Shown: positions 25,741-50,147 of the stretch, piece after piece
Position numbering within the stretch: the stretch's first letter is position 1
Layout of the letters: the number at the start of each line of letters is the position of its first letter
Assembly: GCA_018296165.2 (NCBI GenBank)
Contig: JACKQL020000001.1
Span: 1,116,001 to 1,180,000 of the forward strand
Length of the DNA stretch: 64,000 nucleotides
DNA from: Termitomyces sp. T153
Lineage: Eukaryota; Basidiomycota; Agaricomycetes; Agaricales; Lyophyllaceae
Direction: 5' to 3'
The notes under the pieces: model-generated
The model's input: only the letters and a program-made list of their open reading frames with translations
What the model was told of the DNA's origin: nothing
Databases searched by the model: none
Made by a program: the position numbers and the translations under genes

Positions 25741-25998
25741 GAGGAATGAGCATGATGCTTGGTGGCCTGTCAACACACAATGGATGGAGAGAGGGCATAA
25801 GAAACATGAAACTTTGTCTTCAGCTAGATTGTGTTGAGATTTCATAGGAGTGCACAGAGTGGAGGCAGGAGGCAGGATGCATGTAGGAGAGAAAAGCCAG
25901 TGGGTACAAATTGATAATTTGAAGAAAGGTTGACATGAAGAAAAGGCACAGAACCAGAACTCAAAGTAAGGCCTGAAGGGTGTGTGTCTAAACCAGGA

Positions 25999-29899: not shown

Positions 29900-30898
29900 T
29901 GTCAGGTTCCACTGACGATGGGGGCTCAGTACACTGGCGAGTCCTTACTAGGCGGACGCGATGTCCTGCGCTTATAACCAGGCGTCCAGAGTTGGAGCGG
30001 AGGTGGGGAAAGCTTGCAAGGGGCCCCTAGGGAGAGCGGCCCGAGTAAGTCCTGAGTGATTTGGAGGGGTCTAAGACCGGAGGTACTGGTCGTTGACCCA
30101 GGGCGGGTGTCAGGGCTAGTTAGTGGGCGCACGAGTAGATTGCGGGGTAGGTGGAGGCTTCTTGGTTGATGGGGGGCGGGGTCGGAGTTGGACAGGGGAT
30201 TACTGGGGCTTGGTGGGTTCCGGGACCGAGCAGGTAGTGAGGTCCGGAGTTGTCATTAAGAATGTTCAGGTCGTGGCATGTGCGCGGAGTTTGTACTGAC
30301 GTAGGGAGCAAGGGAACTTCAGAGGAACAAAGGAAATATGTACAGTCGAGACAAGACGGAGACGAGACGAGACTGAGAAAAGATAGATTCGAAACCTAGA
30401 AACAGAAATAAAGACGAGATGAGAGACGAAACATAGGAAACTGGTAAAATGTAATATCAAGACTAAAGTTCGAGGAGTTATTCTATGACTTATATACCGA
30501 CTACTGGGTGCCTCCGAGGGCGGCGGATATGATGGCGGGGGTTGACGGAGCTGTGCTGAGTCGACGGGTGTCGGGTACAATCCGAGGTCGGGCCGCGGCT
30601 GTATTCTGATGGGATCAGTTGGGGGCGTGGCCGCTCCGGGGACGTCGTGACACTCCGGGACGGTCGGGTAAACTAGGGTAGGGGGTCGGGGACGTATGAC
30701 GTGGCCAGGAACGGTGGGGGAAGGTTTCAAGGGGGTGTTGATGGCTACGGAGAGGGAGTTGCTGTCGGGGTTTGCCGGAAAAGCGTCGGAGTTGTCCAGT
30801 GTGGGCGTCGAACATGTGGGCAGGGTCCCGGGGAGTTAGGCGGGAAATTGGGAGGGGTTGGGAGCAGTGTCTAGGGAGCTAGGGAGCGGGTCGTGACA
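29900..30898 (-). repeat. 3' LTR of element B
   Basis: 999 bp, TGTCAGGTTCC at the left edge and GGTCGTGACA at the right. The reassembled 5' LTR is also exactly 999 bp. The differences I see between the two are mostly C/T and G/A. Confidence 0.92.
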
Positions 30899-30973
30899 TC
30901 ACCCCCCCTTCAGCGTTGAGACTCTCGAGATGCGGGGAGCGAGTCGGGGACTGGTAGGGCATGGGAATCGAAG

Positions 30974-30991
30974 TTGATCAATATTGATCAA
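30974..30991. promoter_or_regulatory. 18-bp palindrome upstream of the antisense gene in B
   Basis: TTGATCAATATTGATCAA is a perfect palindrome about 120 bp before the antisense start codon. Its right half, followed by CCGCAG(C/T)GAG, is conserved at the same place in C (41592-41611) and X (48862-48880). It may be a protein-binding site in the antisense promoter. Confidence 0.5.
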
Positions 30992-31111
30992 ACCGCAGCG
31001 AGCGGCGGCGGCATGGGGAAGGAAGTTGAGGTGCGGCCGCCATGCGTTAGGGGCCCCTTCTTAACTTATTAAAAGGGGTGGACGCACCCAGGAGTCCGCC
31101 AGCTTGTTGCA

Positions 31112-32746
31112 ATGTCTTCTTCAGCTTATTCTCCCACAGCATCTAGGTTGCCGTCCCCGCCTTCCCAGCCATCGTCCTCCAAAGATTCAGAGGGTCGCCG
31201 AGATTGCCGTCGGGTCGAGGCGATGTACCGTAGTCATGAGTGCGGCCCATTCCATGTACCCCAGAACACTGATTGTCCCTTCGCAGAGTTGTCTGCGGCC
31301 ATGGCTGGTCCCTCAGGGCCACTGTCTGGTGCGGATGTGACGCAGCCCCCGGCGGGCGTGGTCACTTCTACGCGTTCCAAGTCTGGCATTTGCCCGGGGT
31401 GGTCCGGCTTGTCCCAGAGGGTTCGAGGGTGGTCCAGGCGGAGGTGACGCCGGAGCAGTTTGCCGAGGCAGTGGGTCGGGCAAGGGGTCCCCCCACCCTC
31501 GAGTGGTGTCAGGCGGCGGCTCCAGTGAGTGGCCACTTAGCTTTATGTCTCCCAGACTAACATGCCCCTGCAGTGTGCGTCTTGTACCTGACAAGGGGAG
31601 CAGGGTGAGTTTGAGGAACCGGCATCGGGGGTATGGCGGGACATGTCGGTGTGCCTTCCATGCCGTTCGCGGCACGAGAAGTGCTCCGTCACCCTGAGTT
31701 GGCGGGCCGTTTGCGTCGTGGCGGAGCAAGGGTGGTACCAGGGTTGGGTCGCAGCGCAGCTGGAGGAAGGACGGAAGGGCAGGGTGTCGGGGAGGGGCTC
31801 CGGGGCTGGGGAAGGGGAACGGGACAGCGTGCCTGTCATGAAGGTAGGCCCTCTGCAGGGTGGACGGAAGGAGGGGGCCCCTTCCAGGCAGGAGAAAGGG
31901 AAACGGAGGGTGTCCCCTTCACCCGAGGCGGGTCCCAGTAAGCGGGCGCGGGGCGAGCAGGTGATGGGGGGCCCCCCTGGTTCCGCGGTGTATTCCCCTG
32001 CGTCTGGAGCCCCCGTTGAGCAGTCCGCAGACAGGTCATGGTCGGTTGCGGAGGCCTATCTGCAGCGTCGGGTAGAGGGCTTGGAACGGTTGTTGGTTGT
32101 ATGCGAGGAGGAGATTCAGGGGGTATGGGAGGAGAGGGACGGGGCTCGACGGGAGTTGGACAGGGTTTGGAGGGAATGGGACCTGGCACGGAAAGACAAG
32201 GATGTCGCCGTCGGGACTGCTGCGGAGCGATTATCTTGTCTGCAGGAGTTGGAGGTGCGGACGGTGCATTTGCAGGCGCGGGTGGAGGCGGCGGAGGTGG
32301 CGATGCAGCAGGCAGGAGGCTCAGGGGTGCAGGAGACTCAGCAGGGTTCCAGCACTGGGGAAGTCCGGGCGGCGGCGGAGAGGGCGCGGCGGCGGGAGGA
32401 GTGGCTCGCTAACGAGGCGGCCTCGGGCCGGCAAGGAGTGCTTTGTGAGTGGTCTTCCTGCTTTCTTCTCCTAAGCGCTGATTCGGGTTCCACAGACTGG
32501 GCCCAGGAGCATCGCATCCTTCTCGACAGAGCGTCGGCAGTGCTGGGGTCCATCCATGATGGGTTGGCGAGGATGCCCGGGGACCTCCCACCAGAGTTGG
32601 GTTCAGGGGTTACGCAGATGGGGTGCCTGTTGGCAGGGCATCGGCGGAGGGCGATGGCAGACCCCGGGGCGTGGTGGGAGATAGCGACGGACGTGGGGGA
32701 ACCGCTCCCCGGGCAACCCGAGGTTCTGGCGGTGGTAGTGGCATAG
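31112..32746 (+). pseudogene. Antisense accessory gene of element B (coiled-coil protein), decayed
   Basis: It lies on the strand opposite to gag-pol, starting 214 bp from the 3' LTR with ATG TCT TCT at 31112. The N-terminal half does not resolve into one frame: it has a frameshift near 31380 and a TGA near 31589. From 31643 a long open frame continues. Residues CLPCRSRHEKC (C-x2-C-x6-C, like half of a Zn2Cys6 cluster) are followed by a basic GPSKRARG motif, a long coiled coil rich in Glu/Arg, and EEWLANEAASGR. After a 51-bp intron (32445-32495) comes the conserved tail WAQEHRILLDRASAVL ... LLAGHRRR ... GAWWEIA. The coiled coil, intron position and tail match the intact copy in element C. The Cys-rich part is absent from C. 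Function is unknown; a DNA- or chromatin-binding role is a guess. Confidence 0.65.
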
Positions 32747-33029
32747 TTGGAGGTGTTCATGGTGGGAAGGGTAGCGGGGTTGGGGTCGGAGGAGGAGGGA
32801 GAGTGAGGGGAATTCGGACCCCATCGCTGACCTGTTCCCTGCCCATTTCTTGTTCGAGTATATACCTGTACACTGCTTGCTCCTATACAGTCTTCGGACC
32901 TTCTGCTGAGTGTGGGGAGTTTCAGATAGAGCGAGGAGAGGAGTAAGTGGAAACACGTAGGAGAGTATTGGTGGGAGTTGAATCCCTGGTGAACCCAGAG
33001 GCGGGGGTTACGCCCACTATTGCCATCTG

Positions 33030-36000
33030 TGTTGGGTCAGTCCCGGGGGTTCCGGGGCTTGGCGGGATTCCATTGGTGGAAGTCCCGGAGTTTGTCGGGG
33101 GCCCTGTCAAGGTTCTTTCAGGGTTCTCACGTATTGTCCTCAGGTCCGTAGCCCTTCCAGCGGACCAAGTACTGGAGTCAGCCACGAACTACCCGGGAGT
33201 CGAGGATCTCGTCGACCTCGTAGTGGTACTCGTCCTCGACTTCGACGGGGGGCGGTCGGCTGGGGCGTTGGCCGGGGAAGGGGTCCGGAGCGTGCCTTTC
33301 AAGGAGTCAAACGTGGAACACAGGGTGGAGACCCTTCAGACCCGGAGGCAGGTCGAGCTTGTAAGCGTGGGTGGAGACCTTCCGGAGGATCTTGAATGGA
33401 CCGAGGCGTTTGTGGTCGAGTTTGATAGAAGGCCTCCGGGTCTTAAGATTTCGTCGGTCGAGCCAGACCAAGGTGCTGGGGGGCCAGTCGGGGGTCGGCT
33501 GGCGACGGGCGTCGGCGTGCTTGGAGTAGGCTTGGTTGGCGGTGTCGATCTCGTCCCAGAGGAATTGGTGGAGGGATCAGAGGTCCTCGGCGACTTCGTG
33601 GGCCACGTGGGAGGGGATGTCCTTAAGGGACAGCGTGAGTCAGGGATTGTAGCCCTTGTTGGCGTAAAAGGGGGAAACTCCAGTGGCGGAGTGAGGCGTG
33701 TTGTTGTAGGTGAATTTGGTGAGGGGGAGCTCCGCGCGCCAGTCGTTCTGTAAATAGTTAACGTAGAGGTGAAGATACTGTTCTAATGTCTGGTTTACGT
33801 GCTCGGTTTGCCCGTCGGTTTCCGGGTGGTAGGCAGTAGAGAGGCTGGTTTTGATCTCAAGTGCCTTGCACAGCGATTGCCAGAAATGAGATACGAATAG
33901 GGGTCCACGGTCAGAGACGATGTCGTTGGGAAGTCTGTGTTTGGAGAATACGTGTTCTAGAAATAGTTTGGCAAAATCCGGGGTGGTGTCAGTGGTGTGG
34001 CAGGGAATAAAGAGGGCTTGCTTGGTAAGGCGGCAGACGACGACGAGAATTGCGTCAAAACCTTTAGAGTCGGGGAGTTCGACGATATGATCCATCAATA
34101 TTGAAGACCAGGGGCGGCGACTGATGGGGAGGGGTTTCAGTAATCCGTGGGGGCGATGGCGGGGGACTTTGGCCCGTAGGCAGGGTTTGCAGGCCCTCAC
34201 GTATTGCGTGACGTCCTTCTTCATTCCTGGCCAAAAATAAGTCCGGGAGATGAGTTGAAGGGTCTTACAAATTTCCAGGTGCCCCCAGAGTTTGTGATCG
34301 TGGTGCTGCCGGAGTATGTCGAGGCGAATGGACTTGTGGTCCAGGGCGTAGATTCGTCCACTTCGGAGCAGCAGGCGGTGGTCCAGAGATAGCGAAAAGG
34401 GGTTGTCTACGCTCGACTCGTCGGGGTTGTTGCGGGGGTCGTGCTGGTTGAAGAAGGGGTCCAGGGGTGAATTCCTGATTTGCTGGAGGATTCCTTCTTT
34501 GTTTAAAATCAGCACGGCATGTAGATGTTTGGGTGGGATTACCACTCGATGGTTGAATGCATTTTGTTTGGTTTCAAACAATTTCTTCGGATACACGTCG
34601 GGTCTCCGAGTGAGGGCGTCGGGCTTTGCGCCGAGTTGCCCAGGGCGGTAGTGAATGGTAAAATCGTACTCCAAAAGGGTTTTGGACCATTGAGCCTGGC
34701 GGCGGCTGAGCTGTTTTGTGGTCGTGAAGTATTGCAGGTTGTTGTGATCGGAGTAGACTTGGATGCGGTGCGGGGACCCTTTGAGGTAGGCCCGCCACTG
34801 ATGAAAGGCTTCGATGATCACGAGGAGTTCCTTGTCGTAAATGTCGTAGTTGAGTTCCGCTGGGATCATCGATTGGGTGTAGAAGGCGACGGGGCGGAGA
34901 TCCTTGCCCTCCGAGTTCGACTGGGAGAGTATCCCGGCAATAGCGTAGTCGGAGGCGTCACATTTGAGCACGATTGGTAGGGAGGGGTCGAAATGGCGGA
35001 GGACCGGAGCGGAGGTGAAAGCCTTCTTCAGGAGGAGGAATACGCCCTGGCACTTGCTGTCCCAATCCCAAGGGGTGTCCTTCCTTGTGAGCCGGTTGAG
35101 GGGTTTGGTGATTCTGGAGTAGTTGTCGATGAAGCGGCGATAGAAGTTAGCAAACCCCAAGAATGACTGTACCTCCTTGACGTTCCGCAGGGAGGGCCAG
35201 TTGAGTATCGCGTCGACCTTGGCGGGGTCCATGCGCACACCGTTGGGGGTGACGATGACCCCAAGATATTCGACTTCCGCTGTGTGGAATGAGCACTTTT
35301 TGGGTTTAGCATGAAGGTGATACTCTCGGAGTCGTTCCAGGACACGGCGGACGTGCTCCAAATGCTCCGCCAGCGAATTTGAGTAGATCAGGATATTGTC
35401 CAAATATACGATGACAAAGACGTCGTTCATGTTGTGAAAGATGTTGTTCATGAAGTACTGGAAGGTGGCGGGGGAGTTAGTCATTCCAAAGGGCATTACG
35501 AGATACTCAAAGAGGCCGTAGCGGGTGCGAAAGGCGGTCTTCCACTCATGCCCCAGGGTGATCCGGACGTTGTTGTAGCCGGAACAAAGGTCAATTTTCG
35601 TATAAATCTTGGCGCTGCGAAGGCGATCAACAAGGTCTCCGATTAAGGGGAGGGGGTACCGGTTCTTCTTGGTGACTTTGTTGAGTCCCCGATAATCCAC
35701 ACAGAGTCGGAGGGATCCGTCTTTTTTCTTGGCAAACAAAACCGGAGCACCAGCCGCGGAGATCAAGGGACGTATGAAACCTTTGCCGAGCATGTCGTCG
35801 AGGTATTCCTCCAGGGCCCGGAGCTCGATTTCGGACATGTTGTAGATCTTGCCAAACGGGGGTGAGGTGCCTTCTTCGAGGTCGATCTGGTGGTCGTAGG
35901 AGCGGTGCGGAGGGAGTTCCTTGGCACTTCCTTCGGAGAACATGTCAGCAAACTTATGATACTCCGGGGGAACTACTTCGGATAGGATCTGTTCCTCTGT

Positions 36001-37248
36001 CTTCTTTTCTGGCGTGGTAGTCCCTGCGCGGAGGTATTCCTCTGGTAGGGCCGGAGTGACTTGCAACTGGAAGGCGGGGGTGCCTTCTCGTAGGAGGCGT
36101 GCGAAGGGGACAGCGCTGATGATTTTAATGTTGAGGTTTCCGGAGTCGACGGGGCTGGGTCCCGTAGGTGTAGCAGTTGGATCCGGGGTGGCATTGGGGT
36201 CCGGGATAGGCTGGAAGCAGAGGTGGATGGCGGCTGCTAAGCTCGCTTCGGGGCCAGGGAATTGCATGGTAAGGTTCTTCCAGTTGATGTTGGGGTTGAC
36301 GTCTCGCAGCCATGGGAGTCTGAGCACGATCGGGGTCGACGGGGGTAGTTGGGTAACGAGGAGTCGGGCCTGGAACTGCAGGTCGTTATCGAGGGTGAGG
36401 GTGTTGTCGTGGTACTGCGTGATTCTTGTCGTGGCGGGGCTCCCATCGAAGAGTTGGAGCTCGAGGGGTTTGTCAAGGTCGTTGCGTCAGAGGTCGAGTT
36501 GGTTGCTGACAAAGACACTGGAGGTGCCGCTGTCTACGAGGGCGGGAAGTACCTTGAGCAAGCCGCCAAGTCGGACATAGATGACGAACGATCGTGCAGA
36601 CCTAGAGCAAAGTTGCGGCGGGGTCCAGGGTGGGTTGATCGTGGTCTTGGAGCTCTCGGAGGGGGGTGAGACATGGAAGGGTACCAGTCCGGAGTCGGTG
36701 GGGTTGTCCCGGCCAAGGCGTAGGGTGAGACTGGGCCAATCAACGTGGGGATTGGTGGAGCAGAGCCATGAGAACCCTAAGACGACGGGGGCAGAGGGGT
36801 GTAATTTTGTGACGAGTAGTTGGAGTTCTTGCTGTTGTCCATCGGCGAAGGTCAGGGTCGTTTCTAGGCAATGAGTGATGTCTCCCGCTGGGGTAGAGTC
36901 TCCATCAAAGAGTTTGAGGGAGATCGGGGCGGAAAGACGGCGGAGGGGTTGTGGGGCAAGCGCTGCCAGGGATTCGTCAACAAAGTTATCGGTGGCGCCG
37001 CTGTTGACTAGTGTGGGGACGGGTTTGTTGGTGAAGGGAAGAGTAGTGCGGAGGAGGAGGTTTGTGGAGGATTGAGAGGGGAGGTGTGCTGGGGGGTTGT
37101 CCGGGGCGAGCATCATTGCGTGGAGGAGTGTGGCTGGGGCGGAGAAGACGTCGGGATGTGGTCCGCGGTCTAGTGCATCTTCCAGACCTAAACCGCCGAC
37201 TCGTTTTCCGTGAACTGGTAGTTGCAGTCTTCTCCGTCGATCGTCCAC
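33030..37248 (-). pseudogene. Element B pol: tandem protease, RT, RNase H, integrase, chromodomain
   Basis: The frame from 37248 downward is interrupted by TGA codons at 36489-36487 and 33642-33640 and by further stops near the end. Order: a first retropepsin-like domain with LVNSGATDNF (catalytic Asp replaced by Asn at 37005), a second with LVDSGTSSVF, then RT (DYRGLNKVTKKNRYPLPLI, motif YLDN instead of YLDD at 35397). RNase H (DASDYAIAGILSQ), the HHCC zinc finger (CKPCLRAK), the integrase core (SDRGPLFVS, HPETDGQTE) and finally a chromodomain ([19 protein letters not shown]) close it. It overlaps the gag frame by 61 nt in the -1 frame. The lost Asp residues and the TGA stops fit CGA-to-TGA or CpG G-to-A transitions. 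It encodes the replication enzymes of the family but this copy cannot act. Confidence 0.9.
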
Positions 37249-38321
37249 ACAGCGCGTCCCATCACCTGTCGTTTAGGGCAACTGCGAATAAAATGTCCCT
37301 GCTCACCACATAGGATGCACGCGCCCTCCTTCTGTTGTTTCTCCTGCATTTCTTCCGGCACGTCGATCCACTGACTGTCCTGGATCCTGTTTGCGCATAG
37401 GGCCTCCTGATTGTCGGCGGGGTCCGGGATGTCGTCGCGATCGTTGGGGTTGGTATCCAGGGGTACTGGGGTGTCGTGGAGGTCGGCGGCATTGAGCTGG
37501 GTGGGTGGTCGCTGCCCCGGGAGCCGGTTAGTGTTGGAGACTCCTCGGCCCGGGGGGAAGCGGGGTGCAGGGTTAGCAGGGTTAGCGGGGATGGAGGATT
37601 GGATGCCATTGGTTGCTCCGGCCTGCCAGTTGGTGTTACCGGAGGTATTCCACGGGGTCTGGGGCGCCGTGTTTTCGCTGCGATCTTCCCAATAACGTTG
37701 GTCGACCTGGGTAACGAGCGCCTTGTACCCGTCGTAGGTGGTTTGTTTGGGCGCGAGGCAAAGGACATCCTTGATCCGTTGGGGCAGGGCACGACGGAGG
37801 GCGAACCGGAGGGCGTTGTAATTCCAGCCAGTCTCGTAGGCCTCTCGTTCAAATCGTACAATGAAGGTCATGAAGCGTTCGTTGTCGCACATTCAGAGGT
37901 TGAAGAGATTTTCCTCCGCCTCTGCTACGGTGTCAAAGATGCCAAACTTACTCGAGAACTCTTGAGTGAAAGCGAGCCAATAGGAGAGTACGGGATTGTT
38001 TGGGTCGAACCGGAGTAGCGCGGTGTAGTGGTTGAAGGCGATGCCCTGTAAGTATGATGCGGCGAAGGCCACTTGTGAGCTCTCAAGCTGAAAAGTGATG
38101 GGCTTAGCTTGAAACATAGTTAAACACTGGGTCAGGAAGATTTGCCACTTCCGGGGGTCGCGGCTGGTGAAGGGTTCAGGCTTCTGGATGTCGAGCTTTC
38201 CTTCCCAGGCCAGTGCGTTGTGGGTATCGTCCTGCAAATTTTGAGTTTGAGGTGGGGGTCCGGCGTTATAGTAGTAGTAGTAGTTATTTCCGTTTCTGCG
38301 CTGGGGGGGAAAGCTGTCCAT
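37188..38321 (-). pseudogene. Element B gag core with CCHC zinc knuckle, one internal TGA
   Basis: Two abutting frames in the same phase (38321-37893 and 37892-37188) are separated by a single TGA. The first carries the retrotransposon gag core (DPRKWQIFLTQCLTMF, SYLQGIAFNHYTALL, FSSKFGIFD). The second continues RFEREAYETGWNYNALRFALRRALP and ends with the knuckle CILCGEQGHFIRSC. The stop sits where an Arg codon CGA would read through, consistent with CpG decay. The upstream frame (39697-38381) is in a different phase. Confidence 0.85.
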
Positions 38322-38380
38322 CGCCGGGCCCCATCCTCCCGGGGGTCCGCCATTGGGTGGTCCCCCACTGGGGTTTTGAC

Positions 38381-39697
38381 CTACACTACCCGGGGCAGGT
38401 CCTGGGGCCCATCGAGGGGGAGGGAGTCCTCCGGGATTTGGGGGTCCGAAATAGTTGACGTCGTTGGGGGGTTAGGCATCAGGGCAGGCGGGGGACGAGA
38501 GGGGTTGACGGAAAGAGGAGGTCGGGGCGCCCCGGGGCCCAGGGGCTGTCGCGGGGGAACTGGGGCATTGGGACGGGGCGGAGGGGCATTGCTACGAGGG
38601 GCGCGGAGGTCGAAGTGGGGGGGTTGGTCTCGTTGGGGCCCGTTGCGCGGGGGGTGTTCGTCGGCGGGGTTGCTCGGCTCGTCGATATAGGAGAGGGTCT
38701 GGTTGTTGTTGTCGACGCGTAGGGGCGGTTGTTGGGAGCAGAGTTCAGGGATGGCGGGTTGGTCCCAGGTTCGGAAGGCGCTGGGCACTGAGCTGGCCCA
38801 GGGCCGGGCGGAGAGGGCCAGGGTGTGGGCGGCGGGTTGGTCAAACAACCCCCCCGCGGGGTTGAGATTCCTCAAGATGCTGGAGGCCGCGTTGAGTTCT
38901 TCCTGCTGGCGGGGAATGGAAGATGGGGCTTCGTTTTGTGTCCCGACGGGTTCCTTGCGTTGCACGTGGAAGGAGCGGGCGGGATCCAGGGGATCTTCGA
39001 AGGGGCAGGGGTTCAGGCTAGTGTGGATTTCTTCGACCAAGGCATGGAGCTTGTTCTGTAAGTTGTCGTTGAGGCCCAGGGTGCCTTGCGTATTCTCCGG
39101 GAGGTTCCCTTGTAGGTAGCGTTCGTGGAAGTTGAGGAGTTGATCCGCCCAGACCTCCGGGGTTGCGGAGGCGTCGGGGTAGCCTAGGTTGGTAAGGAGG
39201 GTGCGGGTACGCCTTGTGAATTCCGCAGGGGACAGGCGGAGGAAGCGGAGGACTTTGTCGCGTTGCTGGGCGTAGGCTTCGATCCTTTGCTGCCTAGGAG
39301 AAGGAGGGGTTTGAACGGCGAATGGTGGGCAGGGTGGGGAATAGTTATCCGTGGCTTCCAGAGGGACTGGGGCTGCAGCGGGGATTGGGTATGCATAGTA
39401 ATGGGCGGGGGGAAGGTAGGCGGGGTTGGGGGGTGCTGCAGAGTATCCTCCGGGGTTGATATGGGGGTTGTTGCCATCGGCGTGGAATGCGGGAGGGCGG
39501 CGCCAGCTCGGGGGTATTCCCTGGCTGATGGAGGGGGCGTAGAACACCTGGTTGGGGTCAGGGGTCCAGTGACGGGGCACGTATTGGTCCACAAAGGGAC
39601 CTGGGTAGAATGGGGCGTAGGAATTTTCCAGTATGGGCTGGCCGTAGGCGTCGGTTGGGTAACCAACTGGGTTGTACGCGGGGTTAAACGCAGACAT
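38381..39697 (-). CDS. Element B gag N-terminal frame (Pro-rich)
   Basis: 438-aa frame from the ATG at 39697, the first ATG after the primer site: MSAFNPAYNPVGYPTDAYGQ. The first ~130 residues are Pro/Tyr/Asn-rich. A helical block follows (RQQRIEAYAQQRDKVLRFLRLSPAEF ... NLGYPDASATPEVWADQLLNFHERYLQG), then a Pro-rich tail. Elements X and C begin with a related start (MPALSPHTQSNNSDVYGLP) that stops after 37 codons. Whether this is a separate protein or the N-terminus of Gag joined by frameshift or splicing to the next frame cannot be decided here. Confidence 0.65.
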   Translation of the reverse strand: MSAFNPAYNPVGYPTDAYGQPILENSYAPFYPGPFVDQYVPRHWTPDPNQVFYAPSISQGIPPSWRRPPAFHADGNNPHINPGGYSAAPPNPAYLPPAHYYAYPIPAAAPVPLEATDNYSPPCPPFAVQTPPSPRQQRIEAYAQQRDKVLRFLRLSPAEFTRRTRTLLTNLGYPDASATPEVWADQLLNFHERYLQGNLPENTQGTLGLNDNLQNKLHALVEEIHTSLNPCPFEDPLDPARSFHVQRKEPVGTQNEAPSSIPRQQEELNAASSILRNLNPAGGLFDQPAAHTLALSARPWASSVPSAFRTWDQPAIPELCSQQPPLRVDNNNQTLSYIDEPSNPADEHPPRNGPQRDQPPHFDLRAPRSNAPPPRPNAPVPPRQPLGPGAPRPPLSVNPSRPPPALMPNPPTTSTISDPQIPEDSLPLDGPQDLPRVV

Positions 39698-39716
39698 TGA
39701 GAATGGGGTAAGGGGG

Positions 39717-39728
39717 AGTCTTGATATT
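39717..39728 (-). other. Primer-binding site of element B
   Basis: On the minus strand it reads AATATCAAGACT, one base after the 5' LTR edge at 39730. It is complementary to AGTCTTGATATT inside the LTR (plus-strand 40283-40294). Confidence 0.75.
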
Positions 39729-39729
39729 A

Positions 39730-40347
39730 TGTCAGGTTCCACTGACGACAGGGGCTCAGTACACTGGCGAGTCCTTACTAGGCGGACGCGATGTCCTGCA
39801 CTTATAACCAGGCGTCCAGAGTTGGAGCGGAGGTGGGGAAAGCTTGCGAGGGGCCCCTAGGGAGAGTGGCCCGAGTAAGTCCTGAGTGATTTGGAGGGGT
39901 CTAAGACCGGAGGTACTGATCGTCGACCTAGGGCAGGTGTCAGGGCTAGTTAGTGGGCGCACAAGTAGATTGCGGGGTAGGCGGAGGCTTCTCGGTTGAT
40001 GAGGGGCAGGGTCGGAGTTGGACAGGGGATTACTGGGGCTTGGTGGGTTCCAGGGCCGAGCAGGTAGCGAGGTCCGGAGTGGTCGTTAAGAATGTTCAGG
40101 TCGTGGCGCGTGCGCGGAGTTCGTACTGATGTAGGGAGCAAGGGAACTTCAGAGAAACAAAGGAAATATGTACAGTCGAGACAAGACGGAGACGAGACGA
40201 GACTGAGAAAAGATAGATTCGAAACCTAGAAACAGAAATAGAGACAAGACGAGAGACAAAACATAGGAAACTGGTAAAATGTAATATCAAGACTAAAGTT
40301 CGAGGAGTTATTCTATGACTTATATACCGACTACTGGGTGCCTCCGA
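39730..40347 (-). repeat. 5' LTR of element B, first part
   Basis: Homologous to 29900-30517 of the 3' LTR. It is interrupted at 40347 by element C; the last five bases TCCGA are the target duplicated by C. Confidence 0.9.
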
Positions 40348-41512
40348 TGTCAGGGTCCGCTGACCTCGGGGGCGCAGCTGCACTGGGCGAGTCCTTACTA
40401 GGCGGGCGTGATTCCCCTGCATTGGTGACCGGACACTCAAAGACATTCTGGGTCCTGGTGGTTTGCACGGGTAATTGGGGAGATGTGATCCAGACAGATC
40501 CGGGAAGGTCCGGAGAAGTCGGATTGTGGGGAAATGAGACGGTCTTGGCGGGGTTCAGGCAGAAGGCCGTACGGGAGATTTGCGGAAGCAAGGGAGTAGG
40601 TGGCTGTGTGATCAATGGGGGCGGAGCCGGGGTTTGATGGGAGATCATTTGGAGTTGATGGAGTCTGGGACCGAGCGAAGAGTGAGGTTCGGACCTGGTA
40701 AGGGGTGTCGGGGTTCGTAATTATAATCGCGGAGTTCGTGAGGTCGTTAGGGTTGATGAAGAATTGGGCACAAGGGTCAGACGACGTCACCGAGACGGCG
40801 TTGGACGAGACAATATGGAACAAGAGTAGATTCAAGTGGAGGTACGAAACGATAACGAGAACAATAACGAAAAGGGGACGAGACAAGACCGGGAGACTGA
40901 GATAAGACCGGGAGACTGAGATAAGATCGGGAGACTGAGATAAGACCGGGAAACTGAGAGTAAGGAGAAAAAGACACGAAAACGAACACGAAACACAAAA
41001 AGGAAGCAATCAGACCATAGGTAACGTTAAGCAATATCAAGACTGCAGTACGAAGAGCTACTCGATGACTTATATACTGACTACCGGAGGACTTCGGGGT
41101 ACGTCGGCTGTGGCGGCGGGGCTTGGCGGGGCTTGACGGAGCGGGCGGGTGTCGGTTGTGATCGAAGATCGTGCCGCGCTGATACGTTGATGGGATCGCG
41201 GGTTGTTCCGAGGTTGTCGTGATATTCCGGAATAGGTCGGAGGAAGCAGGGTGTTGAGTTAATGATGGGTGGGCGAAGATCAGGAGTAGCGGGGGTGGTT
41301 CTCGGGGTTTGGGAAGCCCAGGGTAAGTGTCAGTGGCTGCGGGGCAGGCACCGAAGTTGGCCAGGGGGCCGTCGGAGTTAGCCGGGGAGGTGTCGGAGTT
41401 AGCCGAGGTAGGCGTGGGCATGGGCGGAAGTTCGGCGGAGCGTTGGGGGTCCTTTTGGGGGTTCGGGGGTTTGATGGACGATGTGCGGGGTTTTGGGGAA
41501 CGGGTCGTGACA
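40348..41512 (-). repeat. 3' LTR of element C
   Basis: 1,165 bp, TGTCAGGGTCCGCTGACC ... GGTCGTGACA. It contains four to five 19-bp tandem copies of GGGAGACTGAGATAAGACC (about 40885-40958) and the TATATA/AATATCAAGACT promoter block. Confidence 0.93.
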
Positions 41513-41722
41513 TCACCCCCCTTTCAGCGTCGAGACCCTTCGAGACGCGGGGCAGGATGGGGATCGGCGGGGCGTGGGAGTCGAAGCCGAGCAATATTGA
41601 TCAATCCGCAGCGAGTGATAGCGGCGTGGGAGGCGAAGTCGAAGCGCGGCCGCCGTTTCGTCAGGGTCCTCCTCACTCAATTTAAAGCTTTGGGCGTGCC
41701 CCGGGGTTTCCCAAATTTCGTC
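41513..41722 (+). promoter_or_regulatory. Antisense-gene promoter in element C
   Basis: This 210-bp stretch between the 3' LTR and the antisense ATG is matched in length and in islands of sequence in B (30899-31111) and X (48750-48961). Conserved elements are the polypurine tract, AATATTGATCAAtCCGCAGcGAG at 41592-41615, and a TATA-like ATTTAAAGC (ATTAAAAG in B and X) about 45 bp before the ATG. Confidence 0.55.
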
Positions 41723-42847
41723 ATGTCTTCCCCCAGCGTTCCAGTGGTTTCTCCCGCCGATTTAGACGAGGTGGTGGTGTATGACAGTGGGGGTGAGGAG
41801 TTCGAGCGTCGGCGCCGGGGTAGCGTTAGGGACCGGAGTCGTAAGTGTTGTCGAATTTTCCTTTCGGGATGGTTAACGGGGTTCCGGTAGAGTCGTCCGT
41901 AGTAGTAGTGGTGGACTTTCTGGGGGTTCCGAAGCGGACCAAGTTTCGTCCCGCGGTGCCAAAGGGGAAGGGGGCGTCTTCGGTGGTGGTTCGGGGAAAG
42001 CGTCGAGCTTCCCCACCCTCGGGGGCGGGACCCAGCAAGAGGCCGCGTGGGCGCGAGTTGTCGGCGGGGCCTCCTTCCCTCTTTTCCCCTGTCCCTGGCG
42101 TTCCCTCGGAGCGGTCGTCGAGTCCCTCCGCGCCGATTCCTTCAATCACGGAGGTCTTCCTTCGCAAGCAGGTGGAGGCCTTGACGACATCGTTGGCAGT
42201 ACAGGAGGGGGAGCTCCGCCGGGCGAGGGAGGATCGTGACGCGGCGCAGACGGAGAAGGAAGCGATGGAGCGGGAGAGGAATATTTCGGTGCGCGTGGCG
42301 ACGGAGCGGGCGCTAGAGGTGCGGGGTCTGCGGGAGCGTCTGGCGCAGGTGGAGGGGCAACCCGCGGGGGAAGCGGAGGGGCGGGGACGAGTTCCGGAGG
42401 GGGATGCGTTGTGGGCGGAGCTGGAGGCGGCGAGGCGGAGGGAGGATTGGTTGGCCAACGAGGCCGCCTCGGGTCGCGCGGGGATTCTTCGTGAGTTGTC
42501 TCCCGTTCCTCCGTTCGTTATTGACGGTTCATTTTCGGAGTTTAGGCTGGGTGCGGGAGCATCGAGTCCTCTTGGACGGTGCCTCCGCGGCGTTCGCGTC
42601 GATTCAGGACGGGTTGACGCAGGGGTCCGCGGTCCAGCCTCCGGAGTTGCAGCAGGGAATGGCGCGGTTGGAGAGGTTGCTGGCGGGGCATCGGCGACGC
42701 AATGCGGTGGCCCCGGGGTCGTGGTGGGAGGTGGCGGCCGATGCGGGGGAGGCATTGCCGGGGTTGGCGGAGATCCTAGCGGTGGTGCGGGCCCAGATGG
42801 AGGTCGACCTGGGGGTTGGGCTTCCGGGAGGTCCGGGGAGGGAGTGA
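41723..42847 (+). CDS. Intact antisense accessory gene of element C, coiled-coil protein of unknown function
   Basis: Three exons (41723-41840, 41891-42490, 42546-42847; introns 50 and 55 bp, GT-AG) give a complete 339-aa protein, transcribed opposite to the retrotransposon RNA. Residues 1-40 are acidic then Arg-rich. A basic, possibly nuclear-targeting cluster with GPSKRPRG lies near 86-93. A Ser/Pro linker follows, then a Glu/Arg-rich coiled coil (about 125-235) ending EDWLANEAASGR. The conserved tail (239-315) contains WVREHRVLLDGASAAFASIQ, LLAGHRRR and GSWWEVAADAGEALPG. The element B and X copies share the coiled-coil end, tail and second intron position. No known domain is recognised. 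It is the only complete frame in a young mobile element. Possible roles (Gag partner, transcription or targeting factor, silencing suppressor) are speculation. Confidence 0.75.
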
Positions 42848-42903
42848 GATGGGCGTGGGCCTCGTTTCTTGTCGCTCTCGGACTTGCTGCCTTCCCCGCC
42901 TAA

Positions 42904-44898
42904 TGTATATATGATCTTTTGTACGCGAACATGTCATTTCTTGGTCCCTGGGCGTGTGAAGTGAGATTTTTAGTTTTGTCGGAGGGCAAAGTAAGCGAAA
43001 CACGCAGGGGTGTGAGAGGGAGTTGAATCCCTAGTGAGTCCAGAGGCGGGGGTTACGCCCGCTAGTGCCGTCTGCGCTGGCTAGTCCCGGGGTTGGTCGG
43101 GACGGGGCGGGGCATCGCAGGAGGGCTCCCGGGGTCTGTCGGGGTTGGTGGGAGTTCTCCGGTGGGGTCCCCGGCATTTCGGGCGGTGTCGTTGAATTCG
43201 TTTCTCGGAAATTTTCGACTGGGGGTGTAGGGGACGTGCGCCGTTTTGGTAGTAGAGGGTGGCCTTTGAATTTTGTACGGCGCCCAACGGGTTCGGGGCT
43301 TTGGTTGTCTTGGCGGTGCGGTGGGCGGGGGGTAATGGGGGTCTTCCCATGGTCTAGCCCTTACGTCGGTATTGGTGGTGAAGGCGGGCGGGCCCTTTTT
43401 TATTGGCGGGGTTGGGTGAGGCGGGGTTCGTCTTCGCAGTATAGTTGGTCCGGGTCGGGGTTGTGTTCTGGAGTGCTGCGTCTGTGGGCGGGCCTGCTTC
43501 GGGTGGCGCTTTGGTGTGCTCCGGAGTGTCGATGACCGAGGGGGTAGGATGCGGGGTGATCAGTCCCAACCAGTTCCTTCGGGCCCGGGGCCCAATTTGG
43601 GGTTCCGGGTCATCTACATGATATTGCTCTCCTGACCAAAGGTAAGCCCGCGGCGGACAAAGGGGGTCTTACGTATTTCTGATACTTCCTCGAGTTCGGA
43701 GGTTCGGGGGTCTGTGGTCCCTTCATCGGGAAGAAGTGGGTGGTCCCGGAGTCGACTCAAGGGTCACTCGGTGGGGGTTTGTTGGTTGTTCATGGTTGTT
43801 GGGGCGGCGGGAAGGTCGGCCGCGGGAGGGCACTGGAGTGGGGCTCCCCGGGGGATGCGGCAGGGTCGGATTTACTCTTCATTCGTGTTCCGGAGCGGTC
43901 CGGAGATTGTGCAAGTGCAGGGGTGATAGTGGGGGGAGGCACTGCCAGCTTGTCTGGAGGCCCCGGTGATGTGGCCCCTGTTCGGGCGGACATATTCCGG
44001 TGTAGGGGCGGGGTTCGGAGTGGGTGGTGATTTCTGTTGCGGAGTTGGGGCTACCAGGGCATCGTTGTCGAGCCGGCGCTGTGAGTTTTCTTGGTCAGAT
44101 GTCGGGGTCGGAGCGGAGGCCCTGGAGTCGTGTCGCCAGGGTCCGGAGCCGGGTTGATGGGTTCGGAGGGGTCTGGGTGGGACTGTTTCGGGCTGGCGCG
44201 GGGTCGTTTTGGGTTGTCGAGCCATATGGGGGAAGTCTTTTGAGGATATGGGAGCGCGTGCCCCTGGGGGTTGTCGGGTCGCTTAAATGGCCGATCGTTG
44301 TTTTCTGGATGATGGTGGGGCTTCTCCCTCCCTTATATGAACATGTCAGCGAATTTAGAGCACTTGGGGAATTACTTCGTATAGGGTCCTTTTTCCTATA
44401 GTTGGTTCGGGGTGGCCCCTATGCTGGGGATCCCTTCGTGGGAGGTGGCGTAGTCTGGTGGCGGAGTGTAAGCTCGGGGATGTTTTGGTCCTGTTCCGGG
44501 GTTGTCAGGGTCGGGTCGGGGAAGTCGGGGCCCCTTCATTTGTTGGGCGGAGGTGACGGCCGATCGATCGAGGTCCGGAAGCAGGTCACGGGGTTGGAGC
44601 ATAGCCTAGGTCTGAGGTTCTTGTCCTGTGGTGGATTCGAGCTTGATTTCGATGGTTTCGGGGTTAGTTGTCGGAGGGTTTATTTCCTTGGAGGGGGTCG
44701 ATAATAGGGTTTGGTGATGTTGTTGGTGATTAGTCGCGTTCGTCGGTCTGCGGGGTTGCTGGGGGGCCGGTGGAAGATGATTTGACGGTTTGCGCGAGGG
44801 GTTGGGAGTTGGGTGTGAGTTGGGGAAGGTGTCCGTGGGGGGAGCCGTTGTATGAAAGTAACTGGAGCGGAGGGGACGTTTGGTGTCGGATCCACGAC
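42904..44898. other. Non-coding internal region of element C
   Basis: GC-rich, no credible gene on either strand. The sense strand keeps scraps of the parental element: a pol fragment near 44340-44385 corresponding to KFADMF of the polyprotein, and weak likeness to the chromodomain-end region near 43080-43200. It is collinear with the internal region of X, so the deletion predates both copies. Confidence 0.6.
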
Positions 44899-45012
44899 TC
44901 AATGTGCCTCGGCAAATTGGGCAGGGCCGTATGAATCATAAGGGTTCCCCGGCGCGGGTAGACCATAGACATCGGAGTTATTTGATTGTGTGTGCGGAGA
45001 TAATGCGGGCAT
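44899..45012 (-). pseudogene. Truncated gag start of element C
   Basis: 37 codons from the ATG at 45012 (MPALSPHTQSNNSDVYGLPAPG...) to a TGA. It aligns to the first residues of the element B gag frame (V-Y-G-x-P ... N-x-Y). It is too short to be Gag. The same truncation in X shows it is an ancestral feature of the subfamily, possibly a retained packaging or initiation region. Confidence 0.7.
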
Positions 45013-45031
45013 CACGGACGGGGTAAGGTCG

Positions 45032-45043
45032 AGTCTTGATATT
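45032..45043 (-). other. Primer-binding site of element C
   Basis: AATATCAAGACT on the minus strand, one base from the LTR edge at 45045. It is complementary to the LTR 12-mer whose plus-strand copy is at 45730-45741. The TATATAAG box is at 45773-45766, giving a TATA-to-start distance of about 32 nt. Confidence 0.78.
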
Positions 45044-45044
45044 A

Positions 45045-46209
45045 TGTCAGGGTCCGCTGACCTCGGGGGCGCAGCTGCACTGGGCGAGTCCTTACTAGGC
45101 GGGCGTGATTCCCCTGCATTGGTGACCGGACACTCAAAGACATTCTGGGTCCTGGTGGTTTGCACGGGTAATTGGGGAGATGTGATCCAGACAGATCCGG
45201 GAAGGTCCGGAGAAGTCGGATTGTGGGGAAATGAGACGGTCTTGGTGGGGTTCAGGCAGAAGGCCGTACGGGAGATTTGCGGAAGCAAGGGAGTAGGTGG
45301 CTGTGTGATCAATGGGGGCGGAGCCGGGGTTTGATGGGAGATCATTTGGAGTTGATGGAGTCCGGGACCGAGCGAAGAGTGAGGTTCGGACCTGGTAAGG
45401 GGTGTCGGGGTTCGTAATTATAATCGCGGAGTTCGTGAGGTCGTTAGGGTTGATGAAGAATTGGGCACAAGGGTCAGACGACGTCACCGAGACGGCGTTG
45501 GACGAGACAATATGGAACAAGAGTAGATTCGAGTGGAGGTACGAAACGATAACGAGAACGATAACGAAAAGGGGACGAGACAAGACCGGGAGACTGAGAT
45601 AAGACCGGGAGACTGAGATAAGATCGGGAGACTGAGATAAGACCGGGAAACTGAGAGTAAGGAGAAAAAGACACGAAAACGAACACGAAACACAAAAAGG
45701 AAGCAATCAGACCATAGGTAACGTTAAGCAATATCAAGACTGGAGTACGAAGAGCTACTCGATGACTTATATACTGACTACCGGAGGACTTCGGGGTACG
45801 TCGGCTGTGGCGGCGGGGCTTGGCGGGGCTTGACGGAGTGGGCGGGTGTCAGTTGTGATCGAAGATCGTGCCGCGCTGATACGTTGATGGGATCGCGGGT
45901 TGTTCCGAGGTTGTCGTGATATTCCGGAATAGGTCGGAGGAAGCAGGGTGTTGAGTTAATGATGGGTGGGCGAAGATCAGGAGTAGCGGGGGTGGTTCTC
46001 GGGGTTTGGGAAGCCCAGGGTAAGTGTCAGTGGCTGCGGGGCAGGCACCGAAGTTGGCCAGGGGGCCGTCGGAGTTAGCCGGGGAGGTGTCGGAGTTAGC
46101 CGAGGTAGGCGTGGGCATGGGCGGAAGTTCAGCGGAGCGTTGGGGGTCCTTTTGGGGGTTCGGGGGTTTGATGGACGATGTGCGGGGTTTTGGGGAACGG
46201 GTCGTGACA
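45045..46209 (-). repeat. 5' LTR of element C
   Basis: 1,165 bp, same length as the 3' LTR and about eight substitutions from it by eye, mostly transitions. Confidence 0.93.
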
Positions 46210-46214
46210 TCCGA

Positions 46215-46595
46215 GGGCGGCAGATATGATGGCGGGGGTCGACAGAGCTGTGCTGAGTTGACGGGTGTCGGGTACAATCTGAGGTCGGGCCGCGGCTGTA
46301 TTCTGATGGGATCAGTTGGGGGCGCGGCCGCTCTGGGGACGTCGTGACACTCCGGGACGGTCGGGTAAACTAGGGTAGGGGGTCGGGGACGTATGACGTG
46401 GCCAGGAATGGTGGGGGAAGGTTTCAAGGGGGTGTTGATGGCTACGGAGAGGGAGTTGCCGTCAGGGTTTGCCGGAGAAGCGTCGGAGTTGTCCAGTGTG
46501 GGCATCGAAAGTGTGGGCGGGGTCCCGGGGAGTTAGGCGGGAAATTGGGAGGGGTTGGGAGCAGTGTCTAGGGAGCTAGGGAGCAGGTCGTGACA
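46215..46595 (-). repeat. 5' LTR of element B, second part
   Basis: Continues the B LTR after the element C insertion (the 46210-46214 TCCGA is the duplication). It ends GGTCGTGACA and is homologous to 30518-30898. Confidence 0.9.
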
Positions 46596-46600
46596 CCGGG

Positions 46601-47619
46601 GAGCCCCACTCCAGTGCCTCTCTGTGGCTGACCCCCCCGCTGCCCCAACAACCATGAACAACCAACAAATCCCCACCGAGTGACCCTTGTGTCGACTCCA
46701 GGACCACCCACTTCTCCCCCGATGAAGGAACCACTGACCCCCAGACCTCCGAACTCGAGGAAGTATCAGAAATACATAAGACCCCTCTGTCTGTCTTGGG
46801 GCTTACCTTTGGTCAGGAAAGCAATATCATGTAGATGATCCGGAACCTCAAATTTCGGCCCCGGACCTGAAGGAACTGGTTGGGACTGATCACCCCGCAT
46901 CCTGCCCCCTCGGTCATCGACACTCTGGAGCACACCAAAGCACCACTTGAAACATGTCCACCCACAGACGCAACACTCCGGAACACAACCCTGACCTGGA
47001 CCAACTATGCTGCAAGGACAAACCTCGCCTCACTGAACCCCACCAATGAAGAAGGCCCCGCCACCTTTGCCACCAGTGCCGGCATAAGGGCCAGATCACA
47101 GGAAGACCTCCGTTCCCCCCTAACCGCACTGCCAAGAAAACCAAAGCCCCAAACCTGCTGGGCACCATGAAAGAGTTGAAGGTCCACCCTCCAATACCAA
47201 TATGGTGCACGTCCCCGCCACAGACAAAGGAAAACCCCTACACCCCTGGTCAGAATTTCCGAGAATCGAACTCAATAACACTGCCCGAAATGCCACGGAA
47301 CTCCACCGGAGAACTCCCACCACCCCCGCTGAACCTCGGAAGCCCTCCCTGCGATGCCCCGCCCCGTCCCAACAAACCCCGGGACTAGCCAGCACAGACG
47401 GCACTAGTGGGTGTAACCCCCGCCTCTGGATTCATTAGGGATTCAACTCCCTCTCACACCCCTGCGTGTTTCACTTACTTTGCCCTCACACGAACTAAAA
47501 CCTCACTTCACATGCCCAGGGACCAAGAAAAGGACATGTTCGCGTACCAAAATTATATATACAAAAGGTGAGGGAGGCAGCAAGTCCAAGAGCAACAAGA
47601 AACGAGGCCCACACTCATC
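46601..47619 (+). other. Right internal part of element X
   Basis: Resumes element X after the B insertion; GAGCCCCACTCCAGTGCC continues the sequence found uninterrupted in C (near 43830 on the other strand). No gene is seen. It is collinear with the C internal region but has lost many CpGs. Confidence 0.65.
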
Positions 47620-48749
47620 TCACTCCCTCCCCAGACCCCCCAGCAACCCCACCCCCAGGTCGACTTCCATCTGGGCCCACACCACCGCTAAGACCTCCGC
47701 CAACCCCAGCAATGCCTCCCCTGCATCAGCTGTCACCTCCCACCACGACCCCAGGGCCACCGCATTGCATCGCCGATGCCCTGCCAACAACCTCTCCAAT
47801 CGCGCCATCCCCTGCTGCAACTCCGGAGGCTGAACTGCGGACCCCTGCATCAACCCGTCCTGAATCGACGCGAACGCCGCGGAGGCACTGTCCAAGAGGA
47901 CCTGATGCTCCCGCACCCAGCCTAAACCCAGAAAATGAACCGTCAGTAACGAACGGAGGAACGGGAGACAACTCACAAAGGATCCCCACGCGCCCCAAAG
48001 CGGCCTTGTTGGCCAACCAATCCTCCCTCCGCCTCGCCACCTCCAGCTCCACCCACAACGCATCCCCCTCTGGAACTCATCCCCGCCCCTCCGCTTCCCC
48101 TGTGGGCTGCCCCTCCATCTGCGTCAGACGCTCCCACAAGCCCTGCACCTCTAACGCTTGCTCCATCGCCACGTGCACCGAAGTGTTCCTCTCCCGCTCC
48201 ATCGCTTCTTTCTCCATCCGTGCTACATCATGGTCCTCCCTCGCCCATCGGAGCTCACCCTCCCATACTGCCAACGACGTCGTCAAAGCCTCCACCTGCT
48301 TGTGAAGAAAGACCTCCATGACCGAAGAAATCGGTGCGGGGGGACTCGATGACCGTTCCAAGGGGATGCCCGGGACAGGAGAAAAAAGGGAGGACTCCGG
48401 AGGCCCCACCGATGACTCATGCCCACGCGGCCTCTTGCTGGGTCCCGCCCCCGAGGGCGGGGAGGCTCGACGCTTCCCCCAAATCACTGCCAAAGACACT
48501 CCCTTTCCCTTCGGCAACGTGGGACAAAACTTGGCCTGCTTCGGAACCCCTGGAAAATCCACCACCACCACCACGGATGATTCTACAAAGCCCCGTCAAT
48601 CATCCCAAAAAGAAAAGTCAACACCACTTATGACTCCAGTCCCTGATGCTAGCATGGCGCCGACGCTCAAACTCCTCGCCCCCACTGTCGTACACCACCA
48701 CCTCGTCCAAATCAGCGGGAGGGACTACTGGAACGCTGGGGAAAGACAT
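47620..48749 (-). pseudogene. Antisense accessory gene of element X, decayed
   Basis: Third copy of the gene at 41723 in C, again opposite to the element's own direction. Its start codon (48749) lies 213 bp from the 3' LTR. The start, DEVVVYDSGGEEFERRR block, GPSKRPRG motif, coiled coil and tail (WVREHQVLLDSASAAFASIQ, LLAGHRRC, GSWWEVTADAGEALLG) are all recognisable. The first intron donor is destroyed: GTAAGT has become ATAAGT at 48631, a CpG transition. Numerous Arg-to-Trp/Gln/Cys/His changes are those expected from CpG decay. It is therefore probably non-functional. Confidence 0.8.
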
Positions 48750-48961
48750 GACAAAATTTGGGAAACCCTGGAGTACATCCAAAGCTTTTAATTGATTGAG
48801 GAGAACCCTGATGAAGCGGCGGCCGCGCTTCAACTTCGTCTCCCATGCCGCTATCACTCACTGCGGATTGATCAATATTGCTCAGCTTTGACTCCCACGC
48901 CCCGCCAATCCCCATCCTGCCCCCCATGTCTCAAAGGGTCTCGACGCTGAAGGAGGGGTGA

Positions 48962-50142
48962 TGTCACGACCTGTCCTCTGAACCCCCGCACATCGTCCAT
49001 CAACCCCCCAACCCCCACAAAAACCCCCGATGCTCCGCCAAACTTCCGCCCACACCCCGCGCCTATTTTGGCTAACTCCGACGCCTCCCCGGCTAACTCC
49101 GACGCCTCCCCGGCTAACTCCGACGGCCCCCTGGCCAACTTTGACGCCTTCCCTGCAGCCACTGACACTTACCCTGGATCTCCCGAACCCCGAGAACCAT
49201 CCCCACTGTTCCCAATCTTTGCCACCCATCATCAACTCAACACCCTGGTTCCTCCGACCCATTCCGGAGTGTCACGACAACCTCGGGGCGACCCACGTTC
49301 CCCAATGATCCCATCAACATATCAGCGCGGCCCGATCCTCAATCACAACCAACACCCGCCCACTCCGTCGAGCTCCGCTAAGCCCTGCCATTGCGGCCGA
49401 CGTACCCCAAAGTTCTCCGGTAGTCAGTATATAAGCCGTTGAGTAGCTCTTCGTGCTCTAGTCTTGATATTGCTTAACGTTACCTATGGTCTGATTGTTT
49501 CCTTCTCGTGTTTCATGTTTCGTGTCTCGTTTTCTTATCTCAGTCTCCTGGTCTTATCTCAGTCTCCCGGTCTCATCTCAGTCTCCCGGTCTTGTCTCGT
49601 CTCCATTTCGTTATTGTTCTTGTTATCGTTTCGTATCTCTACTCGAATCTACTCTTGTTCCATATCAACCCCATCCCATTTCATCTGACGCTGTCTCGGT
49701 GACTCCATCTGACTGTTGTGCCCAAGTCTTCATCAACCCTAACAACCTCACGAACTCCGCGATTATGATTACAAACCCTGACACTCCTTCACCAGGTCCG
49801 AACCTCACTCTTCGTTTGGTCCTGGACTCCATCAACTCCAAATGATCTCCCATCAAACCCCGGCTCCGTTCCCATTGATCACACAGCCGCCTACTCCTTC
49901 GCTTCTGCAAATCTCCCATATGGTCTTCTGCCTGAACCCCGCCAAGACCGTCTCGTTTCCTTGCAATCCGACTTCTCTGGACCTCCCCGGATCCGTCTGG
50001 ATCACATCCCACCAACTATCCGCACAAGCCATCAGTGCCCGGAACGTCTTTGAGTGTTTGGTTACCAGTGCAAGGGGATCACGCCCGCCTAGTAAGGACT
50101 CGCCCAGTGCAGCTGAGCCCCCAAGGTCAGCGGAACCTGACA
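48962..50142 (+). repeat. 3' LTR of element X
   Basis: 1,181 bp, TGTCACGACC ... AACCTGACA, followed by the GTAAT duplication. It has three in-phase copies of GGCTAACTCCGACGCCTCCCC-type 21-bp units near 49069-49130 where the 5' LTR has one fewer. Confidence 0.92.
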
Positions 50143-50147
50143 GTAAT

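Follow-up and report, generated by a model that had tools for sequence, protein, structure and literature searches.

Some long terminal repeat (LTR) retrotransposons of plants have antisense genes, as do a few retroviruses. In the plant Retand, Grande and RIRE2 elements, antisense open reading frames (ORFs; aORF-3R, TRP28 domain) are reported between pol and the 3′ LTR, where they are kept in most family copies and are suspected of a nuclear or DNA-binding role, their roles being called undetermined; some recently active Retand elements are reported to lack coding domains (PMC11963269, PMC7264820). In human T-cell leukaemia viruses 1 and 2 (HTLV-1 and HTLV-2), the antisense genes HBZ and APH-2, respectively, are described as read from the 3′ LTR side, spliced, and coding for nuclear regulators, and HTLV-2 APH-2 has no bZIP domain yet is able to interact with Tax2 and CREB (PMC10186651). 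Here, we analysed a stretch of 64,000 nucleotides from Termitomyces sp. T153 (assembly GCA_018296165.2, contig JACKQL020000001.1, positions 1,116,001 to 1,180,000 of the forward strand; hereafter the window), in which three related LTR retrotransposons, elements B, C and X, each carry a gene that lies near the 3′ LTR and runs antisense to the element. This system comes from a fungus, Termitomyces being a mushroom farmed by termites, and it combines a DNA-binding-like motif with natural long and short forms. We are nearly certain that the gene is a conserved, spliced, protein-coding gene, and we assign a probability of roughly 0.6 to the reading that its product would act as a transcriptional regulator of the element, judging from sequence features and from the analogies above.

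The Termitomyces gene is like the Retand aORF in being antisense and located between pol and the 3′ LTR, as seen in 46 of the 48 best pol copies, but differs in being fungal, in its six-cysteine motif, in a spliced gene model with shared introns, and in that a non-autonomous family has it as the only recognisable gene. Neither TRP28 (PF04195) nor bZIP matched the C protein, the protein of the X-type locus L030, ten X and Z exons or 22 Termitomyces proteins, and the words 'intron' and 'fungi' are absent from the main text of the two papers on the plant elements (PMC11963269, PMC7264820). We thus regard the gene as analogous to, and neither homologous with nor a member of, the plant Retand antisense ORFs. 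The function of HBZ has been tested, whereas that of the Termitomyces product is putative. None of the 20 papers listed, of 586 matched in a limited literature search, contained the word Termitomyces, so that the novelty of such a gene in fungi is a weak claim. Another fungal gypsy element, BcGypsy3 of Botrytis, is reported to carry an additional gene, 'brtn'.

An apparently spliced antisense gene beside the 3′ LTR

The antisense gene of element C has a sound three-exon model coding for 339 amino acids, with introns of 50 and 55 nt that have GT..AG ends, and it lies beside the 3′ LTR of C, opposite to the element strand (Table 1). The first-pass annotation, made from the letters of the window, had proposed such a gene in B, C and X, intact in the youngest element, and the models and alignments confirmed this placement and state: the C gene is complete, the B gene contains stops, and the X copy in the window is broken, with an exon 1 that is one base short (413 nt, not 414) and in-frame TGA and TAG codons at 31589 and 32744. 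The distance from the start codon to the LTR, earlier given as 211-214 bp, was recomputed as 210 (C), 213 (X) and 212 (B), and the approximately eight differences reported between the C LTRs were recounted as 8 over 1,165 bp. In contrast, a 'long coiled coil' in the product was not borne out, since none of 23 segments tested along the C protein showed a significant heptad pattern (lowest P, 0.06), and AlphaFold2 gives low-confidence helices there.

The intron position said to be shared by B and C was consistent with further alignments. The intron ahead of the tail exon occurs at the same place and in the same phase in C, in the X-family copies and in a related copy, Z (L059, contig C28:485000-488400), which has a four-exon plan and keeps the cysteine exon described below; B aligns to the same plan. 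A further intron, ahead of the cysteine exon, is at the same place and in the same phase in Z and X. A retroelement gene would not be expected to contain introns except where, as in this case, they are antisense to the genomic RNA. By the logic of LTR replication, these introns would persist through retrotransposition because they are on the strand that is left unspliced in the genomic RNA of the element.

When the pol, protease and gag-side proteins of X were searched against the interiors of C and B and against loci L015 and L059, nothing significant was found inside the elements except for one 55-residue match in the LTR/leader region of L015; a separate pol match at this locus lies outside the element. 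The best match in the C interior reached E 0.044, in the leader adjoining the 5′ LTR. The earlier statement that gag and pol are gone from C is therefore consistent with the searches, and C, with its LTR pair, target-site duplication, polypurine tract, X-like primer-site region and no gag-pol, is a non-autonomous LTR retrotransposon. The primer-site region (ATAATATCAAGACTC) behind the 5′ LTR is identical in C (45015-45049) and X (39700-39735) and is without the usual TGG start.

No Pfam family matched the 339-residue C product at E up to 1. A protein search gave 201 matches to it, and the 120 listed were all named Termitomyces, under four strain or species labels, so that the gene is not unique to this genome; it also explains many of the 'hypothetical proteins' catalogued for Termitomyces. 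A host gene captured on the antisense strand and spread for a host function would fit the spliced model and the lack of a Pfam match above cut-off, but this origin is improbable because the matches listed (120 of the 201) are multi-copy Termitomyces proteins, no search for a single-copy host version having been made.

Young non-autonomous copies and purifying selection between older gene copies

We searched the Termitomyces genome (72.4 Mb, 307 contigs) with the C gene at the DNA level, and obtained at least 40 gene copies at 98-100% identity from 557 first-look candidates, together with at least 150 C-type exon-3 matches. For a sample blind to the gene, the 5′ interior of C was used as the query, and the 20 most C-like of the 39 places scored in addition to the window (40 in total) were taken. 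All 20 copies showed the same layout of LTR, antisense gene, about 2.2-2.5 kb more interior, and LTR, which leaves no space for gag-pol. L018 and L028 each have one LTR that is interrupted or rearranged, and the LTRs of L015 are unlike each other; in the other 17 copies, the LTRs differ at 7-25 of 1,125-1,183 sites. The C copies are thus young. A 5-bp duplication flanks ten of the 20 (L012 counted only with the LTR end set two bases shorter), while seven are cut by a contig end and three have none. Contig ends lie in or next to a C-type 5′ LTR in contigs C8, C35, C39, C52, C152, C158 and C177 and, by position, in C32, C251 and C284. Since the assembly breaks at young C-type repeats, their number is probably underestimated.

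The gene is intact in 16 of these 20 copies, which were chosen without regard to it. Among 25 distinct C-type gene copies (the window, L003-L017, L019, L020 and L022-L028), L003-L008 were chosen by gene similarity, two of them coinciding with loci L018 and L021. The reading frame, the start and stop codons and every splice end are undamaged in 21 of the 25; of the damaged four, one has a stop and three a changed splice donor.

Purifying selection acts on the antisense protein between older copies. The ratio of nonsynonymous to synonymous substitution rates (ω, or dN/dS) was 0.42 for B versus C. Most pairwise comparisons among intact X copies gave 0.28-0.63, and the CpG-corrected values in five intact-X pairs were 0.42-0.70. 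These ratios support the earlier proposal of a spliced antisense gene of related gypsy elements, kept for the element or otherwise. Between families, ω was 0.29-0.40, and the C-Z and Z-X comparisons, based on exons 2-4 of Z, in which the splice-junction codon is a stop, were both purifying in the spliced frame. In 30 X copies, ω was 0.50 for single variants (P < 1/2000) and 0.78 for shared variants (P 0.026), the X-wide values being diluted because broken copies were included.

Two observations speak against selection on an antisense protein. The young C copies gave no selection signal (ω 0.82 and 1.05), and the ratio near 1 that the first-pass annotation had treated as adverse was thus found in the C burst but not at the older depth; neutral values in a young burst are expected of recent insertions whatever their history. 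In addition, the B/C sense-strand frame that shares the wobble position also has a low ω (exon 2, 0.50; exon 3, 0.55), so that either exon alone cannot separate the strands. The presence of an open sense frame in exon 2 as well, together with the youth and neutral-looking mutations of the C copies, could suggest chance open frames in G+C-rich repeats, intact merely through youth. Such an origin is extremely improbable and is effectively refuted by the B-C, X-X, C-Z and Z-X comparisons, all of which are purifying in the spliced frame.

We also considered that the antisense RNA alone may matter, tuning the element, with the open frame as a passenger. Control by antisense RNA has been considered for other retroelements (PMC7264820), and the conserved leader described below and the young copies without codon-level selection would agree with this. 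However, the amino-acid-level selection among older copies (ω about 0.3-0.5), the shared introns and the conserved cysteines disfavour an RNA-only role, which we consider quite unlikely.

The six-cysteine long form and a putative regulatory role

The X lineage carries the long form of the gene. From the protease, reverse transcriptase, RNase H and integrase matches in X and the chromodomain in its relative L057 (Chromo, E 2.1e-17, above cut-off), the lineage is a Ty3/gypsy chromovirus; in the window, the X pol frame ends before the chromodomain position, and the frame at 38381-39856, whose upper end extends into the LTR, has no Pfam match. The 48 best pol matches, drawn from 6,753 candidates, were compared with the antisense-gene matches; of the 134 listed, 93 were used and the shorter or weaker ones dropped. 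Of the 48 pol copies, 46 had the antisense gene at most 3 kb away on the 3′ side and in opposite orientation, at a spacing of 898-903 bp in 42 of them, and no same-strand case occurred. At one of the two misses (C1:1046843), the gene match lies roughly 7 kb beyond, separated from pol by a C-type copy, and at the other (C290), there was no antisense-gene match among those listed. The two genes of L057 face each other tail to tail, some 230 bp separating the end of the sense gene from the antisense stop. Among the 30 X-type loci that best match the X gene (L029-L058), at least 12 code for a complete spliced product of 531 amino acids (exons of 414, 871 and 311 nt; introns of 49 and 51 nt), a lower bound that follows from the use of fixed splice patterns. 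The second intron is in frame in the complete copies, and read-through would give 548 amino acids.

The X-type protein carries the motif C-x2-C-x6-C-x15-C-x2-C-x6-C, after which come a basic stretch, a part predicted to be helical and the conserved tail. The six cysteines are all conserved in the ten X copies compared and also in Z, with a 10-residue spacer, and among the 120 listed of the 201 protein matches, four Termitomyces proteins show the pattern, each with the tail. The six-cysteine part is missing from C, and from B where B can be aligned to C. With its two CxxCx6C halves, basic residues and predicted helices further on, the long form resembles the fungal Zn(2)Cys(6) binuclear cluster factors (PUT3, Cep3; PF00172), but it differs from them in scoring below the Pfam cut-off, in halves that are swapped in the two alignments viewed, and in a spacer of 15 (X) or 10 (Z) residues. 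We therefore describe the motif as Zn2Cys6-like, resembling the fungal cluster, and do not place it in family PF00172.

The leader from the LTR edge to the ATG is well conserved among C, X and Z. Z and ten X copies have TTAAA in a position comparable to that of the TATA-like site of C, so that such a site occurs 42-46 bp before the ATG, and we regard the leader as a putative antisense promoter that may also be a target site. A segment of about 105 bp just 3′ of the gene is also shared (32942-33051 in X, where it sits between the gene stop and pol; 47374-47479 in B; about 2480-2585 in L059). It is 83% identical between X and B, versus about 65% for the aligned gene part, is retained in the non-autonomous copies, and contains the short inverted repeats GGGA..TCCC and GGCG..CGCC; it is possibly a shared 3′-end, packaging or dimer signal.

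These features suggest a mechanism in which the antisense gene would be read from a promoter beside the 3′ LTR, on the opposite strand, and its transcript then spliced in vivo. The product would enter the nucleus via the basic stretch, the long form would bind DNA through the six-cysteine, Zn2Cys6-like motif, and the element's own transcription from the LTR would be regulated. The short form of B and C, from which the cysteine domain is gone and in which the helices and tail are kept, probably works through partner proteins; this is conceivable by analogy with APH-2, which is reported to interact with Tax2 and CREB without a bZIP domain (PMC10186651), as the C form would act without the cysteine domain. 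The short form presumably arose by loss, and may derive from a non-autonomous family still carrying the cysteine part, such as Z, for which a pol match was not seen within 1 kb downstream. The B/C family, in turn, would have spread with the antisense gene as its sole gene by borrowing the enzymes of X-like relatives.

Several results weigh against a DNA-binding regulator. Pfam Zn_clus (PF00172) gave 18.3 bits for the whole L030 protein, below the cut-off of 21; against single exons, it matched weakly in seven of ten (at most 15.2 bits) and not in L042, L050 or Z, and at E <= 0.1 it matched none of the 22 Termitomyces proteins, including the motif bearers. A sequence search of the PDB yielded only three matches, all Zn2Cys6 domains, with weak E values of 0.4-0.7, and in the two alignments viewed, the cysteine halves are in swapped order. 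The AlphaFold2 model of the cysteine-bearing protein P0068, built with 21 relatives, was poor (mean pLDDT 48) and matched no PDB fold at E <= 0.001. Furthermore, selection has difficulty in preserving a trans-acting regulator in a non-autonomous family of many copies. The protein may instead serve at another stage of the life cycle, as a cofactor of integration or packaging or by suppressing host silencing, which we judge unlikely but worth keeping in view: no direct link ties the product to transcription, and the selection and the retention in a non-autonomous family would fit any factor that aids the copy making it. The basic stretch, the Zn2Cys6-like motif and the antisense position at the LTR, however, resemble those of known or suspected nuclear antisense factors, and by this resemblance a transcriptional regulator is the preferred reading.

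Carried further, and only as a rather doubtful conjecture, the lineage may have evolved an antisense zinc-cluster-like regulator with strand-sheltered introns, of which a daughter family kept an interfering or partner form stripped of DNA binding, thereby exploiting the control of its parents. If true, a parasite of a parasite would have turned its parents' control system to its own spread. The elements in any case offer a concrete system for testing the roles of antisense genes, their retention by a non-autonomous element, and the persistence of introns in a retroelement.

Nested elements of the window

The three elements, all of Ty3/gypsy type, are nested. X, on the minus strand, is inserted into the interior of B, on the plus strand, and C, on the minus strand, into the 5′ LTR of X. 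The coordinates are collected in Table 1.

Table 1. Positions of the elements, antisense genes and associated sites in the window.
Feature	Position	Strand	Remarks
Element B	27233-29895 + 46596-50147	+	interrupted by X
B 5′ LTR	27233-28396	+	91% identical to B 3′ LTR, 48962-50147
B antisense gene	47620-48749	-	lower end approximate; exon plan as C; decayed by stops
Element X	29900-46595	-	Ty3/gypsy type; interrupted by C
X 3′ LTR	29900-30898	-	X 5′ LTR, 39730-40347 + 46210-46595, split by C
X antisense gene	31112-32806	+	long form with six-cysteine exon; broken in window
X gag-pol stretch	33640-39856	-	protease, reverse transcriptase, RNase H, integrase and zinc-knuckle matches
Element C	40348-46209	-	inserted in X 5′ LTR
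C target-site duplication	40343-40347 and 46210-46214		TCCGA
C 3′ LTR	40348-41512	-	1,165 bp
C polypurine tract	41513-41524	-	adjoins 3′ LTR
Candidate control site	41593-41604	+	AATATTGATCAA; identical in C, X and Z leaders; putative function
TATA-like site	41681-41687	+	TTTAAAG; begins 42 nt upstream of ATG; putative promoter
C gene exon 1	41723-41840	+	ATG at 41723
C gene exon 2	41891-42490	+	basic KRRASPPSGAGPSKRPRGRE stretch and helical region
C gene exon 3	42546-42847	+	conserved WxxEHxxLLD..LLAGHRRR..WWE tail and stop
Conserved segment	42980-43085		about 105 bp, just 3′ of antisense gene; in B, C, Z and X
C 5′ LTR	45045-46209	-	1,165 bp

Between 26000 and 51000, Rfam gave only two overlapping matches, far under the gathering score and outside C, and ARAGORN found no tRNA. 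An LTR-like copy at 25997-27168, directly before B, shares about 67% identity with the C LTR. Finally, a 711-residue frame on the minus strand (60894-63029), with glutamine amidotransferase, indole-3-glycerol phosphate synthase and PRA isomerase domains, is a tryptophan gene of the usual fungal kind, adjacent to the repeats.
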